Shown one piece after another: positions 1-59,485 of a stretch of DNA of 64,000 bases. Position numbers and translations under genes: made by a program. The first letter of the stretch is position 1; each line of letters begins with the position of its first letter. The DNA lies in assembly GCF_017303295.1 (NCBI RefSeq), contig NZ_JAFKOK010000017.1, forward strand, positions 1 to 64,000, written 5' to 3'. This DNA is from Rhodobacter sp. NTK016B (lineage in GTDB: Bacteria > Pseudomonadota > Alphaproteobacteria > Rhodobacterales > Rhodobacteraceae). The notes beneath the pieces are model-generated. The model ran no database searches. It was given only the letters and a program-made list of their open reading frames with translations, and was not told where the DNA came from.

Positions 1-60
1 CTGCCCCCCTCTTGGCCTGCGGCCAATTCACCCCCCGAGGATATTTCGGGATTAAAGATG
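1..60 (-). repeat. 3'-end intergenic element, copy 1
   Basis: Read on the minus strand, this stretch begins with CATCTTTAATCC, continues through AAATATCC, a run of six Gs and TGA, then a perfect hairpin TTGGCC-GCA-GGCCAA and the start of a G-rich arm that is cut by the window edge. It lies directly downstream of the aldo/keto reductase gene and points the same way. The same layout recurs at 1920, 13024, 16401, 20761 and 57915. The repeat is seen directly; a role in transcript 3'-end formation is inferred. Confidence 0.8.
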
Positions 61-11012: not shown

Positions 11013-12908
11013 ATGACGAGCCAATTCGCAAGCCTTGCGGATCGAAACGCCATCGAGGCCGAGATGCCCTGGGCCGACCGCGACATGCCCGCCACGGTCT
11101 ACGATCAGGTCACGCGAACGGCCCTGACCCATGGCCGGCGCAACGCCGTCTCGTTCCAGCTTTTCTCGGATGACGGCGCCCATGCCGAAACCCTGACCTG
11201 GACGCAGTTCCACGCCAAGGTCACGCAGGCCGCAAACCTGTTTCGCAGTCTCGGCGTCGGACCCGATGATACCGTGGCCTTCGTGCTGCCGACGATCAAC
11301 GAAACCGCCATCACCCTGTTCGGCGCGATGACGGCAGGGATCGTCAACCCGATCAACCCGCTGATGGAGCCCGAGAAAATCGCGGGCATCCTGCGCGAGA
11401 CGAAGGCCAAGGTCGTGGTCACCCTGCGCGCCTTTCCGAAATCGGACGTGGCGCAGAAAGTGGCCGAAGCCGTGGGCAACGCCCCCAGCGTGAAAACCGT
11501 GCTCGAAGTGGATCTCAACCACTACGTGACCGGTCTCAAGAAGATGATCATCCCGCTGATCCGGCCCAAGAACCCGGTTCACCACACCGCGCGCGTCCTC
11601 AGCTTCTTCCGCGAACTGGAAAAGCAGCCCGCCCAGCGGCTGACCTTCGATCAGGCCAAGGACGATCCGGTCTGCGCCTATTTCCATACCGGTGGCACGA
11701 CGGGCCTGCCCAAGGTCGCCCAGCATCGCCATTCGGGCATTCTGTACAATGGCTGGATCGGCGCGACGCTGCTGATGGACGAAACCGATGTGGTGCTCTG
11801 CCCGCTGCCGCTGTTTCACGTCTTCGCCGCCTACCCGGTGCTGATGTCGGTCACCTGCGCGGGCGCGCATGTGATCATGCCCACGCCGCAAGGCTACCGG
11901 GGTGACGGGGTGTTCGACAATTTCTGGAAGCTGGTCGAGCGCTGGAACGCCACTTTCGTGATCACCGTGCCCACCGCGCTTTCGGCGCTGATGCAGCGCC
12001 CGGTCAATGCCAATATCTCCAGCCTGAAAAGCGGCTTTTCAGGCTCGGCGCCCTTACCGCTCGAACTCTATCGCCGGTTCGAGGAAGCAACCGGCGTGTC
12101 GATCATCGAAGGCTACGGCCTGACCGAGGCCACCTGCCTTGTGTCGTGCAACCCGATCAGCGGCGAGAAGAAGGTGGGCTCGGTCGGCATCCCCTTCCCC
12201 TATTGCAGCGTGCGCATCCTGCATCACGACGCCGATGGCGGGGTCAGCAAGGAGTGCGGCCCCGACGAGGTCGGCGAGATCTGCATCTCGAATCCCGGCG
12301 TGATCCCCGGCTCGACCTATACCGAGAAAGCCAAGAATGACGGGCTTTACGCCGATGGAAGCTGGCTGCGCACTGGCGATCTGGGGCGGATCGACCCCGA
12401 TGGCTATCTTTGGATCACCGGCCGCGCCAAGGATCTGATCATCCGTGGCGGGCACAATATCGACCCGGCGATGATCGAAGAGGCGCTGCTCAGCCATCCC
12501 TCCGTCGCCTTCGTCGGCGCCATCGGTCAGCCCGACGCCAAGGCGGGCGAATTGCCCTGCGCCTATGTCGAACTGGTGGGCGGCAAGAACGTGACGGAAC
12601 GCGATCTGGCCGACCATGCCGCCAACCGCATCCCCGAGCGCGCCGCCGTGCCGAAATACATCGAGATCCTGCCCGAACTGCCGAAAACCGCCGTCGGCAA
12701 GGTCTTCAAACCCGACCTGCGGCGGCTGGCGATCACCCGGGTCTTCGACGAGACGCTCGGTGAGGCGAAGCTCGACGCAAAGGTGGCCGAAGTGATCGAG
12801 GACAAGAAGCGCGGCCTCGTGGCCCGCATCGAAGCCGCGCCTGGGGTGGATGACGCGAAGCTGACCGAGATTCTGGGCCAGTTCTCGGTCCCGTGGGAAA
12901 AGGTCTGA
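11013..12908 (+). CDS. acyl-CoA synthetase (AMP-binding)
   Basis: This 631-residue member of the ANL superfamily activates a carboxylic acid to its acyl-CoA through an acyl-adenylate. It has the P-loop HTGGTTGLPK, the motif GYGLTEATC, the hinge motif GYLWITGRAKDLIIRGG and the C-terminal catalytic lysine context PKTAVGKVFKPDLR. There is no signal peptide. Before the ATG lies AGGATAACGAAC, a good ribosome binding site; an upstream in-frame start (10977) adds 12 codons without support. Medium or long-chain fatty acids are the likely substrate, but aromatic acids cannot be excluded. Confidence 0.9.
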   Translation: MTSQFASLADRNAIEAEMPWADRDMPATVYDQVTRTALTHGRRNAVSFQLFSDDGAHAETLTWTQFHAKVTQAANLFRSLGVGPDDTVAFVLPTINETAITLFGAMTAGIVNPINPLMEPEKIAGILRETKAKVVVTLRAFPKSDVAQKVAEAVGNAPSVKTVLEVDLNHYVTGLKKMIIPLIRPKNPVHHTARVLSFFRELEKQPAQRLTFDQAKDDPVCAYFHTGGTTGLPKVAQHRHSGILYNGWIGATLLMDETDVVLCPLPLFHVFAAYPVLMSVTCAGAHVIMPTPQGYRGDGVFDNFWKLVERWNATFVITVPTALSALMQRPVNANISSLKSGFSGSAPLPLELYRRFEEATGVSIIEGYGLTEATCLVSCNPISGEKKVGSVGIPFPYCSVRILHHDADGGVSKECGPDEVGEICISNPGVIPGSTYTEKAKNDGLYADGSWLRTGDLGRIDPDGYLWITGRAKDLIIRGGHNIDPAMIEEALLSHPSVAFVGAIGQPDAKAGELPCAYVELVGGKNVTERDLADHAANRIPERAAVPKYIEILPELPKTAVGKVFKPDLRRLAITRVFDETLGEAKLDAKVAEVIEDKKRGLVARIEAAPGVDDAKLTEILGQFSVPWEKV

Positions 12909-12944
12909 TGCGCCTCGTTACGCCGCCACGCGAGGGTCTCGGGG

Positions 12945-13095
12945 GCAGGGCACGCCCTTCCCCAGGCCCCTTCCTTGGATATTCGACGAACAAAGATAGG
13001 GTGTTAACACCCGGTTAACCACGCATCTTTAATCCGGAAATATCCTCAGAGGGTGAATTGGCCGCAGGCCAAGAGGGGGGCAGACAGCCCCCCTT
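12945..13095. repeat. 3'-end intergenic element, copy 3 (bidirectional)
   Basis: This composite element lies between the convergent acyl-CoA synthetase and mtaB genes. The plus half (13024-13095) has CATCTTTAATCC, AAATATCC, hairpin 1 TTGGCC-GCA-GGCCAA and hairpin 2 GGGGGGC-AGACA-GCCCCCC. The minus half has a related CTATCTTTGTTC and GAATATCC plus a G-rich tail. Outer arms GGATATT (12977) and AATATCC (13045) make the centre a long inverted repeat, and GGGTGTTAACACCC (12999-13012) inside it is a perfect 14-base palindrome. Confidence 0.75.
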
Positions 13096-13136
13096 CCTTT
13101 CGCATTACCCAGCGCGCCCGGTCGCGGTCGCCAGCC

Positions 13137-14414
13137 TTACGCGCCCGCGCGCAATTGCTGTCCGTCATGCCCGACGATCCGTGCGGGCACGATCTGGCCC
13201 ACCGGCTGGTCGCTGTCGAACCGGACCTCGGTAAATTGCTCGGTCCGGCCCATGCGGGCGTTTTCCAGAAGGACGCGGTGATCGTGCCCGACCTGTTGCG
13301 CCAGATGGCGCGCGGCAACACTGGCGCCCAGATCCCGCAGCCGCGCCGCGCGTTCCTTGATCAGCGGCTTGGCGACCTGTGGCATCCGCGCAGCAGGCGT
13401 GCCCTTGCGGGGCGAATAGGGAAAAACATGCAGCCACGTCAGGCCGCATTCCTCGACCAGTTTCAGCGAATTGGCGAACATCTCTTCGGTTTCCGTGGGA
13501 AAGCCCGCGATGATGTCCGCGCCATAGATCAGGTCGGGGCGCGCCGCGCGCATATCCTCGCAAAAGCGGATTGCGTCGTCGCGCAGATGGCGGCGCTTCA
13601 TCCGCTTCAGGATCATGTCGTCGCCCGCCTGCAGGGACAGGTGCAGATGCGGCATCAGGCGCGGCTCGGTGGCGATGGCCTCGATCAGCGCGGGATCGGC
13701 TTCGACCGAGTCGATGGAAGAGATCCGCAGCCGCTGCAGATCCGGCACCAGCTTGAGGATGCGCCGCACCAGATCGCCCAGCTTCGGCTCCGCCGGAAGA
13801 TCCGCACCCCACGAGGTCAGATCGACGCCCGTGAGCACCACCTCGTTGTACCCCGCGCCGACCAGACGCTTGATCTGCTCGACCACCACGCCCGCCGGGA
13901 CCGAGCGTGAATTGCCCCGGCCATAGGGGATGATGCAGAAGGTGCAGCGATGGTCGCAGCCGTTCTGAACCTGCACATAGGCCCGCGCGCGGGTGCCGAA
14001 ACCGTCGATCAGATGGCCCGCCGTCTCGCGCACCGACAGGATGTCATCGACCTGCACGCGCTCGGTCTCGCCGATCAGATCGGGCGCCATGCCCGACCAG
14101 GTCTCGGGCTGCATCTTCTCGTGGTTGCCGATCACACGGGTGACTTCGGGCATCCCGGCAAAGGTCTCGGGCTCGGTCTGCGCGGCGCAGCCGGTAACGA
14201 TGATCGACGCGCCGGGATTTTCCCGCGCGATGCGGCGGATCTCCTGCCGCGCCTTGCGCACCGCCTCGGCGGTCACCGCGCAGGTGTTGACGACATGCGC
14301 ATTCGCCACGCCCGCCGCCTGTGCGAGATCCTTCATCGCCTCGGTCTCGTAGGCGTTTAGCCGGCAGCCCAGCGTGGTAAAGACGGGCGCCTTGATGTCG
14401 GGGGTACCGCTCAT
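13137..14414 (-). CDS. mtaB: tRNA threonylcarbamoyladenosine methylthiotransferase MtaB
   Basis: This 425-residue radical-SAM methylthiotransferase converts t6A37 to ms2t6A37 in ANN-decoding tRNAs. The N-terminal UPF0004 domain has Cys17, Cys45 and Cys76 for the auxiliary [4Fe-4S] cluster, and the radical-SAM motif CDHRCTFC holds Cys153, Cys157 and Cys160. The C-terminal TRAM domain is present at about 370-425. Closeness to MiaB is possible, but the [10 protein letters not shown] start is typical of the MtaB branch. The start overlaps the dapF stop by 4 bases (ATGA), so the two genes are translationally coupled. Confidence 0.93.
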
Positions 14415-16299: not shown

Positions 16300-16460
16300 C
16301 CCCGCACCCCCGCCCGGGGGAGAGGCACGCCCCTTCCCCGGCCCCCCTTCGGTGGATATTTGGAGAACAAAGATGGGGCGTTAAGACGGCGTTAACCGCG
16401 CATCTTTAATCCCTAAATATCCCGGGGGGTGAGCGCGCAGCGCGAGGGGGCAGAGCCCCC
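16300..16460. repeat. 3'-end intergenic element, copy 4 (bidirectional)
   Basis: This composite lies between the convergent panE and HAD phosphatase genes. The plus half (16401-16460) has CATCTTTAATCC, AAATATCC, hairpin 1 built on GCGC/GCGC and hairpin 2 GGGGGC-AGA-GCCCCC. The minus half reads CATCTTTGTTCTCC, AAATATCC and then a G-rich stretch. The outer arms GGATATTT (16354) and AAATATCC (16422) are inverted, with GTTAA-containing spacers between, exactly as in copy 3. Confidence 0.78.
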
Positions 16461-20760: not shown

Positions 20761-20830
20761 CATCTTTAATCCCCAAATATCCCGGGGGGTGAGCGCGACT
20801 GCGCGAGGGGGGCGAGCAGCCCCCCTTACC
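20761..20830 (+). repeat. 3'-end intergenic element, copy 5
   Basis: The copy lies downstream of the thioredoxin-like gene and upstream of pyrB, on the same strand as both. Box A is exact (CATCTTTAATCC, AAATATCC). Hairpin 1 uses GCGC/GCGC arms and hairpin 2 is GGGGGGC-GAGCA-GCCCCCC. It is the only copy between co-directional genes whose flanks are both visible. Confidence 0.78.
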
Positions 20831-45810: not shown

Positions 45811-46548
45811 ATGCGTACATTTACCCTTGTTGCCCTCGTGCTTTTTACTGCGGGTTCGCCCGCTCTGGCGTATGATTCCGCCCGCTCTGCCTCGGTCCGC
45901 GATGGCGAGGATTGCCCGTCTTGTGACCTCGCCGGAGGCGATTTCGTGGAAGCCGACCTGTCCGGGCTCAACCTCGCCGGAGCCGATCTGGCTGGCGCGG
46001 ATCTGTCGGAAGCCGATCTATCGGACGCCGATCTGGTCGGCGCCGACCTCGCGGGTGCCAATCTGAGCGAGGCCGACCTGTCAGGCGCCGACCTGACCGA
46101 CGCCGATCTGGCCGGGGCAGACCTGACCGAAGCCGACCTGTCACGCGCCACGCTTGTACGGGCGGATCTCGCCGGCGCCGATCTGACCGAGGCGGACTTC
46201 TCGCGCGCTGACCTGACCGAGGCGGATCTGTCGGGTGCCGACCTGACCGAGGCCGATCTGTCGCGCGCAACCCTGACGCAGGCCGATCTTGCGGGCGCGA
46301 CATTGACCGAAGCCGATCTTTCCGACGGCAGCGCAGACAACGCCAATTTCGCTGGTTCCGTTCTGGACGACGCGGATTTTTCCGACACCAGCCTTGAAAA
46401 CGCACGCTTTGGCGGCGCAAACACTGCGGACGCCGAGATGCCGGAAGGCTTCGAGCAGCAATCGGCCAGCCCGGCGGATGACGCTGCAGCCGCTGATGAC
46501 AGCGACAGCGCCGCAGGCGACGACGACGCGACTGGCCAAGGCGACTGA
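45811..46548 (+). CDS. exported pentapeptide-repeat protein
   Basis: This 245-residue protein has a signal peptide (about 1-20, SPALAYDS cleavage region) and about 28 pentapeptide repeats of the A-D/N-L-x-x form (about 38-205), then an acidic, low-complexity tail (about 210-245). The repeats predict a right-handed quadrilateral beta-helix about seven coils long. Cytoplasmic relatives such as Qnr mimic DNA, but export makes gyrase protection unlikely. Its function is unknown. The repeat DNA is itself partly tandem. It lies between prfC and the prfC remnant. Confidence 0.88.
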   Translation: MRTFTLVALVLFTAGSPALAYDSARSASVRDGEDCPSCDLAGGDFVEADLSGLNLAGADLAGADLSEADLSDADLVGADLAGANLSEADLSGADLTDADLAGADLTEADLSRATLVRADLAGADLTEADFSRADLTEADLSGADLTEADLSRATLTQADLAGATLTEADLSDGSADNANFAGSVLDDADFSDTSLENARFGGANTADAEMPEGFEQQSASPADDAAAADDSDSAAGDDDATGQGD

Positions 46549-51289: not shown

Positions 51290-51330
51290 GCATGAGTATT
51301 TATGGCAAAGTGAAAGGGGGGGAGCCCGGC
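51290..51330 (+). repeat. GAGTATTT-type intergenic element
   Basis: CATGAGTATTTATGGCAAAG followed by GTGAAAGG and a G-rich stretch resembles the element on the minus strand at 59451. Unlike the CATCTTT copies, it does not follow a gene on its own strand: DUF6524 and VOC genes both lie on the minus strand. Confidence 0.45.
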
Positions 51331-53742: not shown

Positions 53743-56700
53743 TTACTTCCCGGCGAAGCGACGAGCCTGTTCTGCGAATTCCGATCCCGAGGCGAGCTGG
53801 AACTGGCCGCGACGCGAACGCGCCAGGCTTCCCTGGCGCATCAGCAGACCGAAGGTGCGAAGCAGGTTCTCGCGCGAGCGCGTCATCGGCAGGCCGGTCG
53901 ACACGACGTGCCGCATGACCTGCGGGCGCGAGAATTCCTCGAGCCCCTCTACATGCGTAATATAGGCCGCAGCGGCCTCGGTCAGTTCGGCAAGTGTGGT
54001 CAGGTGCATGGGCCCGACGAAATCGTCGAAGGCCTTGCCCCGTGGCATCGGTGTCGCGGGCGCATCCTCGTCGAACAATTCCTCGACCGCGAGCGCCCCG
54101 GTATTGATCCGCCGCGGACGCACCAGCTCGGTGTCGCTGGGCCGGTCGATCCGCTGTTCGCTCACCAGCACCAGAGGCGGCTGCGCGCTGCGCGGACGCT
54201 CGGTGCGATGGCTTGCGGGACGTTGCGGGCGGCGCGGTCCGCGCTCGTCGCTGGCCTCGTCGCCATTGGGCCGGACCGAGCGTTCCAGATCGGCGCGGTA
54301 GCGGGCGATCTCGGCCTGCTGGGCCACTTCGGGGTTGCGGGCCGAACCGGCTTCCTCGTCGGCGCGGGTGGCGATGACGGCGGCTTTCAGATGGCTCAGC
54401 GTCGATTGACGGCGCTGCGCGTCTTCACCCGAAAGCTCGGTATCGGCCTGGATGATCAGACGATCGACAGCGGCGTCGGCTTCCTGCCCGCGCAGCAGCG
54501 CGCGGCGTTCGCTTTCGGCACGGCGCGCGGTTTCCGACTCGCGCTCGACGGCGGCGAGTTCGGCGACCAGCTCGGCTTCGTCCTCGGCGGCAAGGCCGGT
54601 GTCCCCCAGAGCGCGGGCAACGCGGGCTTCGATATCGTCATCATTGTCGGTCTCGGCGGCGTCTTCCGCGTCAACCGGGGTTTCGGCGGCGACGGGCTGG
54701 GTGTCTTCAAGCGCATCCTCATCGGAGAAACCGTCCTCGGCGAACGCCGCCATGGTGGCGCGCACGCTGTCGGTGGCGTCCCGCTGTCCGGCGTCAAGCG
54801 CGGCCGGGGCGGTTTCGCTCTGCGCGGGTTCGCTGTCCACTTGCGGGGCCGGAGCTGCCGCGCGCGGCGCCGGACGAACGATCACCACGCGGCGGCCCTG
54901 ACGAGGCGCGGCGGGCGTTTGCGACGCCGCAGCCTGTTCGGTCGCCGGGTCCGCAGCCTGATCGTCGCCATTGTCGCGCGCCGCCAGTTCGGCACGGACC
55001 TGCGCTTCTAGGCGCTGACGTTCCGCTGCCAGACGTTCACTCTCGTCAGTGTCGTCGGCGGCGCTTTCATTCGTGTCTTCAACGGCTTCTGACGCGTCGT
55101 CAACTTGAGTACCCTGCGCGTGGGCAAGGCGCGCGGCCTCGGCGGCAACAAGGTCGTCTTCGTCGCCAAGGTCGTCTGACATTTCAATGTCAGACATCGA
55201 ACCCTCTTCCGCCAGCCGCGCCGCAACGGCGGCAGCCTGACGCTCATCCTCAAGCCGCGCGGCTTCTTCGGCAGCCAGACGCTCAGCCTCAAGACGCGCC
55301 GCTTCCTCAGCAGCCCGACGCTCATCCTCAAGACGCGCTGCCTCCTCAGCAGCCAGACGCTCAGCCTCGAGCCGCGCCGCTTCCTCAGCAGCCTGACGCT
55401 CAGCCTCAAGACGCGCCGCTTCCTCAGCAGCCTGACGCTCAGCCTCAAGACGCGCTGCTTCCTCGGCAGCCTGACGCTCGGCCTCAAGCCGCACCGCTTC
55501 CTCGGCAGCCAAGCGCTCAGCCTCAAGCCGCGCTGCTTCCTCAGCCGCCTGACGCTCAGCCTCAAGACGCGCTGCCTCCTCAGCAGCCTGACGCTCAGCC
55601 TCAAGACGCGCCGCTTCCTCGGCCGCCAGACGCTCGGCCTCAAGACGCGCCTCTTCATCAGCCGCCAGACGCTCGGCTTCAAGCCGCGCAGCCTCCTCAG
55701 CAGCCTGACGCTCATCCTCAAGGCGCGCCGCTTCCTCAGCCGCGAGGCGCTCGGCCTCCATACGGGCGGCTTCCTCTGCGGCGCGGTCGCCATCGGCGGT
55801 CTCGTCCGCCAGTTCTTCCATCGACCCATAGAGCGGCGCGGGCTCAAACGGGGCCGCGTAGCCGCCATGGTCATTCTGGACCGGCGCGGCCTGACCCGCG
55901 TCGAACTGCTGATCGGCGAAAACCTGATTGTCGCCGTAATAGGCGGTCTGCGGGGCCTGCTGCGGCTCGGCCTCGGGCGCGGGCGCGAAATCGCCACTAT
56001 CCTGCCAGCCATTGTTCCAGCTCTGCGCCTCGTCCTGAGCCACGTCCTGCGACCAGCCATCATTCGTAACTGGTGCGGGGTCGAGCGCGGGCTCGGCGGG
56101 GCTTTCCTCCCATGCGGTGTCGATCCAGCCCTCGGCAGCCCAAGGGGTCTGCGCGTCGGCTTGCGTGTCGTCAAAGGGCGCGGCCTGCGCGAGCGTCTCG
56201 GTATCCGCGCCGGGCTGATTGGGCTGTTCGTCGGCGGGCGCGTCGACCAGATCGGTGGGCGCAGGTTCGGCGGGCGTGCCCCAGGCACCCTGCGCGTCCG
56301 CATCGGCCTGCGTCGCGATGTCCGCTGCCTCATCGGCCGACGCCATCGCATCCTGCACGGCGTCCTGAACATCCGCTTGCGGGGCCGCTGCAGGGGCTTC
56401 CTCCTGCTCGGCGGCGCGCACCTGCGCGACCGCGGCACGAATGCGCTGCAGCTTGGCCGAGATGTCGCTGAGTTGACCGGTTTCCAGCGGCTCGCTTTGC
56501 CCCTGATCGCCTTGGTCTTCGCCGGTCTGCGACGCGGCCTCTCCCCGGCGCGCAGCGGCATCGACCGCATCAGCGGCCGCGAGGGTCGAGGCGCTGGCGG
56601 CATGGCGCGGCGCGACGTTCTGCTCGGCGCGATCCTCGGCGGGCTGATCGGCGACCGCGTCGCTCCCCTGCTCCGCCGGTTCGCCATCGGCCTCGTCCTG

Positions 56701-57820: not shown

Positions 57821-57914
57821 ATGCAACATGACTTCGCCTGAACAGGGCCGATGGCGGCCACCGGCTGTCATTTTTCCTACACTGCACGAAAGCCTGACCT
57901 TCAGCACAACCCGC

Positions 57915-57985
57915 ATCTTTAATCCGCAAATATCCTGGGGGGAGGGTCGGGCGCAGCACGAACCGGGGGGCAAAGCCCCCCTGCC
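57915..57985 (+). repeat. 3'-end intergenic element, copy 6
   Basis: The copy lies downstream of the thiamine pyrophosphokinase gene in the same orientation, between convergent genes. It has CATCTTTAATCC and AAATATCC. Hairpin 1 is degenerate (TCG/CGA ends) and hairpin 2 is GGGGGGC-AAA-GCCCCCC. Confidence 0.75.
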
Positions 57986-59450: not shown

Positions 59451-59485
59451 GCGCCCTCCCCCTTCACGCTGCCGAAAATACTCGA
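59451..59485 (-). repeat. GAGTATTT-type intergenic element
   Basis: On the minus strand, GTCGAGTATTTTCGGCAGCG is followed by TGAAGGGGGAGGGCGC, like the element at 51290. It lies downstream of the DUF2783 gene on the same strand, 109 bases past its stop. Confidence 0.45.

Follow-up and report, generated by a model that had tools for sequence, protein, structure and literature searches.

The described systems closest to the element reported here are repetitive extragenic palindromic (REP) sequences, with bacterial interspersed mosaic elements (BIMEs), REP doublets forming hairpins (REPINs) and REP-associated tyrosine transposases (RAYTs); the DNA uptake sequences (DUS) of the Neisseriaceae; intrinsic (Rho-independent) terminators; and the HRC-8-4 motif of the Rhodobacterales. 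The element, a short box accompanied by hairpins, recurs at gene ends in a stretch of 64,000 nucleotides (the window) of Rhodobacter sp. NTK016B, positions 1–64,000 of contig NZ_JAFKOK010000017.1. Like the REP systems it is extragenic and high in copy number, with palindromic parts, several classes per genome and, in three of the six genomes sampled, inverted doublets of preferred spacing. It is an extragenic palindromic repeat as REP sequences are (3 of 210 boxes in genes, covarying hairpins, 195 copies), but it is not accompanied by a RAYT gene flanked by the repeat. It differs from them further in that RAYTs are missing from most of the box-rich genomes, in a bipartite box whose middle letters are free and which includes a block specific to the genome, and in that many sites recur in a sister species yet are respelled in place. 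With the DUS dialects it shares one short word that is respelled per lineage and inverted pairs near terminators (described in the available part of PMC3630211), but it has far fewer copies, almost never lies in genes, combines 15 fixed letters with a genome-specific block and is tied to gene-end hairpins. Intrinsic terminators likewise have GC-rich hairpins after stop codons that often serve convergent genes, a likeness strongest in the window genome, whereas the element mostly lacks a U tract and has a strictly kept box beyond the hairpins. HRC-8-4, compared by its description rather than its sequence, is also a Rhodobacterales motif with a terminator-like hairpin, and the available part of the same paper describes other Rhodobacterales motifs (Brewer et al. 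2021, PMC8632094). A literature search whose scope left out most subscription papers found no published description of this repeat family, and the main text of the RepRanger paper, as far as available, contains neither 'Rhodobacter' nor 'Paracoccus' (PMC12306157). Rfam release 15 gave no match in the window at gathering score, with sub-threshold hits only at 12900–13140.

Our results show that this dispersed repeat family is real and larger than first stated, that its box is spelled in a genome-specific way, with two congeners differing at orthologous sites, and that at one conserved site in Paracoccus the element associates with the gene on its hairpin-2 side. We favor a model, plausible though a little short of probable, in which the element is a Rhodobacter-family module for termination or insulation at gene ends, with a box that would be read by a species-specific trans-acting factor. 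More tentatively, we propose that gene ends are punctuated by a sequence code for such a factor, a code whose spelling would drift and whose sites, including the centers of facing pairs, would be respelled in place.

The class A box was searched for as CATCTTT-N7-AAATATCC and the sister classes B and C as GAGTATTT-N3-GCAGAATGAA, with the mismatch limit stated for each search; gene positions come from a gene caller run in this analysis (64 genes in the window, 87% coding). With up to three mismatches the class A pattern matched seven times in the window, compared with a mean of 0.28 and a maximum of 2 in shuffled sequence. Across the window genome (G000, 4.84 Mb in 86 contigs, the window being contig C8, 1–64000) it matched 195 times with up to two mismatches, and the reversed-pattern control gave none. 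The sister-class pattern occurred at 60 places under the same limit (control 0); 30 of these match exactly and about 20 read GCAAAGTGAA. Several box classes coexist per genome. A reading of the window made from its letters without database searches (the sequence-only reading) had described six copies. Its boxes at 39–60 (minus) and at 13024, 16401, 20761 and 57914 (all plus) are present, and each leads into a G-rich stretch and hairpins. All six sites are elements, but the box at 1920 belongs to a different class. Nor is six the total, since four further boxes lie at 12977–12998 (minus), 16354–16375 (minus), 51294–51314 (plus) and 59463–59483 (minus); those at 12977 and 16354 are the inverted-pair partners of 13024 and 16401. 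The hairpin arms TTGGCC/GGCCAA, TTTGCC/GGCAAA and GCGC/GCGC were all found as described, except that the first hairpin of the 57914 copy is different and imperfect. The features are listed below, with copies numbered as in that reading and strands given for boxes.

39–60, minus strand: class A box, copy 1; hairpins at about 1–38, with hairpin 2 truncated by the contig start
1917–1937, minus strand: class B box GAGTATTTCCGGCAGACTGAA, copy 2 in gene sense; one mismatch to GAGTATTT-N3-GCAGAATGAA
1948–1982: hairpins of the copy at 1920; hairpin 1 TTTGCC 1948–1953 / GGCAAA 1958–1963, hairpin 2 G run 1966–1971 / C run 1977–1982
12977–12998, minus strand: class A box, left half of the first inverted pair; two mismatches, with a GC-rich hairpin region at about 12940–12970 to its left
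13004–13018: TTAA-N7-TTAA center motif of the first pair
13024–13045, plus strand: class A box, right half of the first pair, in the coordinates of the sequence-only reading
13058–13093: hairpins of the 13024 copy; hairpin 1 TTGGCC 13058–13063 / GGCCAA 13067–13072, hairpin 2 GGGGGGC 13075–13081 / GCCCCCC 13087–13093
16354–16375, minus strand: class A box, left half of the second inverted pair
16381–16395: TTAA-N7-TTAA center motif of the second pair
16401–16422, plus strand: class A box, right half of the second pair, copy 4
16433–16460: hairpins of the 16401 copy; hairpin 1 GCGC 16433–16436 / GCGC 16440–16443, hairpin 2 G run 16446–16450 / C run 16456–16460
20761–20782, plus strand: class A box, single, flanked by two same-strand genes, copy 5
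20793–20825: hairpins of the 20761 copy; hairpin 1 GCGC 20793–20796 / GCGC 20801–20804, hairpin 2 G run 20807–20812 / C run 20820–20825
51294–51314, plus strand: class C box GAGTATTTATGGCAAAGTGAA, newly found; two mismatches to the sister-class pattern
57914–57935, plus strand: class A box, single, in a convergent gap, copy 6; hairpin 2 is G run 57965–57970 / C run 57976–57981
59463–59483, minus strand: class B/C-like box GAGTATTTTCGGCAGCGTGAA, newly found; two mismatches to the sister-class pattern

In the orientation first drawn, the element runs from the box through a G run, TGA, hairpin 1 and GA to hairpin 2. Read in gene sense, a class A module would instead consist of a stop codon, the GC-rich hairpin 2, hairpin 1 and a box of the form G(G/A)(A/G)TATTT-NNN followed by genome-specific letters and a purine-rich tail. 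Positions 10 and 11 (TC) are invariant in 106 boxes of the window genome though free in the search pattern, and positions 13–14 carry near zero information. Contig ends of this genome fall within or beside an element at C8:39–60, C1:11–79, C9:11–79 and C15:123 and in two further stretches (L009 and L019, at the ends of C6 and C9), so the assembly was probably broken by the repeat and copies at the breaks may be undercounted.

With up to one mismatch, the class A box is found in 71 of 149 genomes of the family and 39 of 72 genera, and copy-rich genomes each have a spelling of their own: CTTCTTTCTGG-NNN-AAATATCC in an uncultured Defluviimonas metagenome-assembled genome (MAG; G020), CTTCTTTGGGT in G078, CTTCTTTTGTTCTT in an uncultured Sulfitobacter MAG (G085), CTTCTTTTCGC in G147 and CATCTTTGTTC with AAATATGC in G079. 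Another genome, G094, is unmatched at this limit and has 51 places of a looser pattern (for example CTTTCACTCTGC), so an unmatched genome may carry a different spelling. A general genome collection held at least 116 stretches with the bare box. Among the matches listed, a G run or CCGCCGG comes next in 36 of the 116, of which 34 are titled with Rhodobacterales genera or families and two 'Proteobacteria RHODO2'; the 80 others listed, without either continuation, include many from AT-rich taxa, which look like chance, and some from Rhodobacterales with related continuations. Nine plasmid records had 0–6 places each of one pattern. Around orthologues of gene 11064–12908 in other genera gene order is mostly lost; in one (L233) a differently spelled element directly follows the orthologue, and in another (L236) a box-like sequence lies immediately 3' of an intrinsic terminator. 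Phage origin was considered and dropped: a phage collection gave no match, and none of 120 bare-box viral stretches continued with a G run or CCGCCGG. DUS are known to have dialects that differ between species and to form inverted pairs near terminators, and these likenesses could also point to an uptake-like self-recognition sequence. We regard this as extremely improbable, because no genome has more than a few hundred places of the element where DUS number thousands, and because the three boxes in called genes among 210 contrast with DUS, which are common in genes (the statements on DUS are from the available part of PMC3630211).

The change in spelling can be followed site by site between the window genome and its congener Pararhodobacter sp. 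CCB-MM2 (G098; 97 places of the search pattern). Of 40 G098 stretches retrieved, 21 are homologous to an element stretch of the window genome among those compared, so many sites are inherited. Twelve of the homologous stretch pairs were aligned, and eleven of them contain 16 boxes in the same columns, ten of which lie in the eight pairs with homologous flanks on both sides. All 16 boxes differ at one or more of positions 7–10 (position 7 in 1, position 8 in 7, position 9 in 12 and position 10 in 2), and at positions 12–14 the two species disagree in 28 of 48 cells; position 11, left free by the search, differs in 0 of 16, and the lack of change at positions 3–6 and 15–22 proves nothing because the pattern fixed them. 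C stands at position 9 in 28 of 46 G098 boxes versus 1 of 105 in the window genome. Hairpins are near-identical across species in three stretch pairs (L598/L058, L606/L117 and L608/L108) and on one side of two more (L610/L004 and L619/L023), and at other aligned sites a different hairpin occupies the place. The facing pairs have changed as well. Their center is TTAA in 16 of 17 pairs of the window genome versus none of six in G098, and their spacing is 45–49 in 16 of the 17 and 63–67 in five of the six. Four G098 pairs with the wider spacing (L597, L607, L610 and L619) have a center palindrome like AATTTGACTCAAATT, and one pair of the window genome (L056, spacing 61) has a G098-like form. TTAA-N7-TTAA occurs 24 times in the window genome versus 18 for the reversed pattern, and on contigs C1–C22, for which box positions were compiled, eight of 12 occurrences lie beside a box; CtrA, considered as a binder of this center from its familiar consensus, is not favored, as G098 pairs lack TTAA. 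A recognition site that follows its reader would fit these data, because the outer letters are fixed, the middle letters are free and the genome-specific block changes in concert at inherited sites. Within a single species, two strains of Leisingera aquaemixtae (L550 and L554) have an identical box and flank beside RidA and different hairpin types.

The same comparison bears on the idea that a REP/BIME/REPIN-like repeat is copied or homogenized between gene ends by transposition or gene conversion, with the spellings as swept subfamilies and the gene ends merely tolerated. In three of the six genomes sampled, narrow-spaced inverted pairs take in 46 of 106, 10 of 25 and 10 of 25 boxes, an inverted-doublet layout like that of REPINs (in the available part of PMC3116915). 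Multiple box classes per genome, the joint change of pair center and spacing between species, absence at an orthologous window gap in G098 and the hairpin types swapped beside an unchanged box in Leisingera speak for it too. However, the other three genomes (G085, G147 and G079) have no pairs among 54 boxes, left flanks and pair centers are not mutual copies, 21 of the 40 retrieved G098 elements have a homologous stretch among those compared from the window genome, and hairpins are near-identical at sites whose box letters differ. A match of any kind to Y1_Tnp was found in 18 of 149 genomes and is lacking in seven of the nine genomes with at least 25 box places, and the single RAYT-like Y1 transposase gene of the window genome (L091 1435–1914, G000:C22), apparently intact, has no box in its 3.3-kb locus. 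RAYT mobilization was rejected on these grounds, in agreement with the original judgment that the element is not mobile, and we consider copying or homogenization as a whole rather unlikely.

Placement was assessed for boxes of six genomes whose neighboring genes both scored at least 20, rows with a weak or absent neighbor being dropped. Of the single boxes, 56 lay in convergent gaps, 52 between two genes running against the box, 16 between two running along it and three in divergent gaps; of the members of pairs, 32 lay in convergent, 32 in tandem and two in divergent gaps. Divergent gaps thus hold only 5 of 193 extragenic boxes with both neighbors called, whereas 9 of the 36 window gaps of at least 80 bp are divergent (5 convergent, 22 tandem), which bears out the proposed location at gene 3' ends; a promoter reading was dropped on this near-absence. 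The further claim that every copy directly follows a gene and shares its orientation fared less well. A same-strand gene does lie upstream of all six copies, but four of these (1920, 13024, 16401 and 57914) say nothing about direction because their convergent gaps also hold the stop of the opposite gene, and across the six genomes tandem singles run 52:16 against the direction drawn (p=1.4e-5; G000 21:5, G020 5:5, G078 4:4, G085 7:1, G147 6:0, G079 9:1). Class B/C boxes, in the GAGTATTT sense, run along the genes in 10 cases versus 2 against (p=0.039). A trivial cause of the tandem bias, selection against strong hairpins just before a start codon, is possible. In four tandem copies (L037, L060, L218 and L220) the ATG within the box (AAAGATG when read in gene sense) coincides with the start codon called for the following gene, and in two others (L196 and L197) the purine tail lies just upstream of the start, like a ribosome-binding site.

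Independent evidence on which neighbor the element belongs to comes from the site downstream of 3-oxoacid CoA-transferase subunit B on Paracoccus plasmids, where nine annotated loci were sampled. The element is present in eight of these, under seven named species or strains: P. pantotrophus (twice), P. ferrooxidans, P. versutus, Paracoccus sp. MA, P. aminovorans, P. methylovorus and P. aminophilus; the ninth, in P. denitrificans, shows no more than a similar hairpin. Hairpin 2 faces the stop of the CoA-transferase subunit B gene in all eight, and the neighbor on the box side varies (YjdM, a hypothetical gene, a lyase, a methyltransferase or an XRE regulator). The seven names show five box spellings, and the hairpin-1 arms, TTGCGGC/GCCGCAA, are identical in all eight loci.

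Gyrase and GapR have roles in DNA topology, and the element could be a site for these, for an IHF-like protein or for another architectural protein of the nucleoid where convergent transcription accumulates positive supercoils, with termination incidental. The enrichment in convergent gaps and near-emptiness of divergent ones, the AT tracts that can be read about 11–12 bp apart across a facing pair and the TTAA centers of the window genome would all suit such a site. Yet genome-specific letters other than A and T would be unusual for conserved architectural proteins, and single tandem copies are common; we judge this explanation decidedly unlikely.

The proposed covariation of the hairpins is upheld by a larger set of loci. 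Among 54 distinct hairpin-1 sequences, 205 of 216 cells (the four pairs nearest the stem base) are Watson–Crick paired, against a mean of 95.4 (standard deviation 8.5) and a maximum of 128 when the 3' arms were redealt in 5000 shuffles. Reduced to 23 distinct arm pairs, 82 of 92 cells are paired (shuffled 36.8, maximum 56), and an earlier test on 33 sequences of the window genome gave 114 of 165 (shuffled 63.5, maximum 85); these shuffles give no exact probabilities because related copies are not independent. Across 305 hairpin-1 stem pairs there are four internal mismatches, one of them T-G, a lower bound given a stem finder that tolerated at most one mismatch. Because wobble (G-U) pairs are almost absent, the sequences suggest that pairing is needed on both strands. 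The complete TGA/hairpin formula accompanies 56 of 106 boxes of the window genome, 7 of 25 in G078 and none of 79 in the other four genomes; genomes without it have other hairpins, G085 mostly CCGCCGGAGGC in place of the hairpin pair, and box class is only loosely linked to the type that follows. In three stretches (L576, box at 1501; L212; and L236) the box stands immediately before or after a hairpin and T run resembling an ordinary intrinsic terminator.

These observations divide the original interpretation of the element as a structured RNA 3' end, a terminator or stabilizer in the drawn direction of the box. Hairpin covariation and gene-end placement stand behind it, but the direction of tandem singles, the Paracoccus site where hairpin 2 points toward the gene's stop, the scarcity of G-U pairs and the G085 copies with CCGCCGGAGGC instead of hairpins do not, and structure leaves the genome-specific shift in box spelling unexplained; in that form we think it very unlikely. 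RNase E cleavage in the AUAUUU/GUAUUU part, considered because the letters resemble its motif, is not favored, as 3' UTRs (untranslated regions) contain no more than about 2% of the RNase E sites in R. sphaeroides according to the available part of PMC6238624.

Modules frequently occur as facing pairs, for the most part where genes converge, and such pairs have a further motif in the middle. In the scenario we envision, the hairpins may end or shield transcripts, and the box would be a recognition site for a trans-acting factor, more likely on DNA than on RNA. The specificity of the factor would drift and the sites of the genome would follow, and the placement of the element suggests that the factor could reinforce termination or insulate neighboring transcription units. 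Several results weigh against this scenario. The direction bias is absent in two of the six genomes (G020 and G078), and 16 of 68 tandem singles are oriented opposite to the majority. The box letters outside N7 were set by the search pattern, so their constancy is partly ascertainment. Folding of the 75-nt flank that holds the hairpins reached a z-score below −2 relative to shuffles in 34 of 60 singles of the window genome (opposite side 12 of 60), but in only 13 of 84 in the other five genomes (opposite side 7 of 84); the strong hairpin pair therefore belongs chiefly to the window genome. A U tract (TTTT within 8 nt) follows hairpin 2 in the drawn direction in 6 of 56 elements, and in the gene direction follows hairpin 2 in 2 of 56 and hairpin 1 in none of 56. 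The window pair 12977/13024 has no counterpart in G098, where different hairpins occupy the orthologous gap, which is bounded by the same two genes. Gain and loss of sites therefore occur too; the 38 kb of G098 around that gap contain no class A box with a G run by a scan that also misses true copies such as 13024. Finally, point mutation does not easily yield the altered pair centers and spacing. They would be in keeping with gene conversion, which could also homogenize spellings and explains these changes better than a changing reader does. Gene conversion, however, must change a few letters yet spare the adjacent hairpins and the free positions, and with moderate confidence we rank the changing reader first. 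Because U tracts are rare, the hairpins would be poor textbook terminators, and such a factor, or Rho, could have a part to play.

Two tandem arrays also lie in the window, at 55084–55863 (period 39 nt, inside a called gene) and 45892–46391 (period 15 nt).

If the model of a factor-read module is correct, a large and much-studied bacterial family would possess a gene-end module with an undescribed reader, and this module could explain how transcripts end in GC-rich genomes with few U tracts. The specificity of the factor should then track the dialect across species, so that candidates could be found through co-variation or pull-down.
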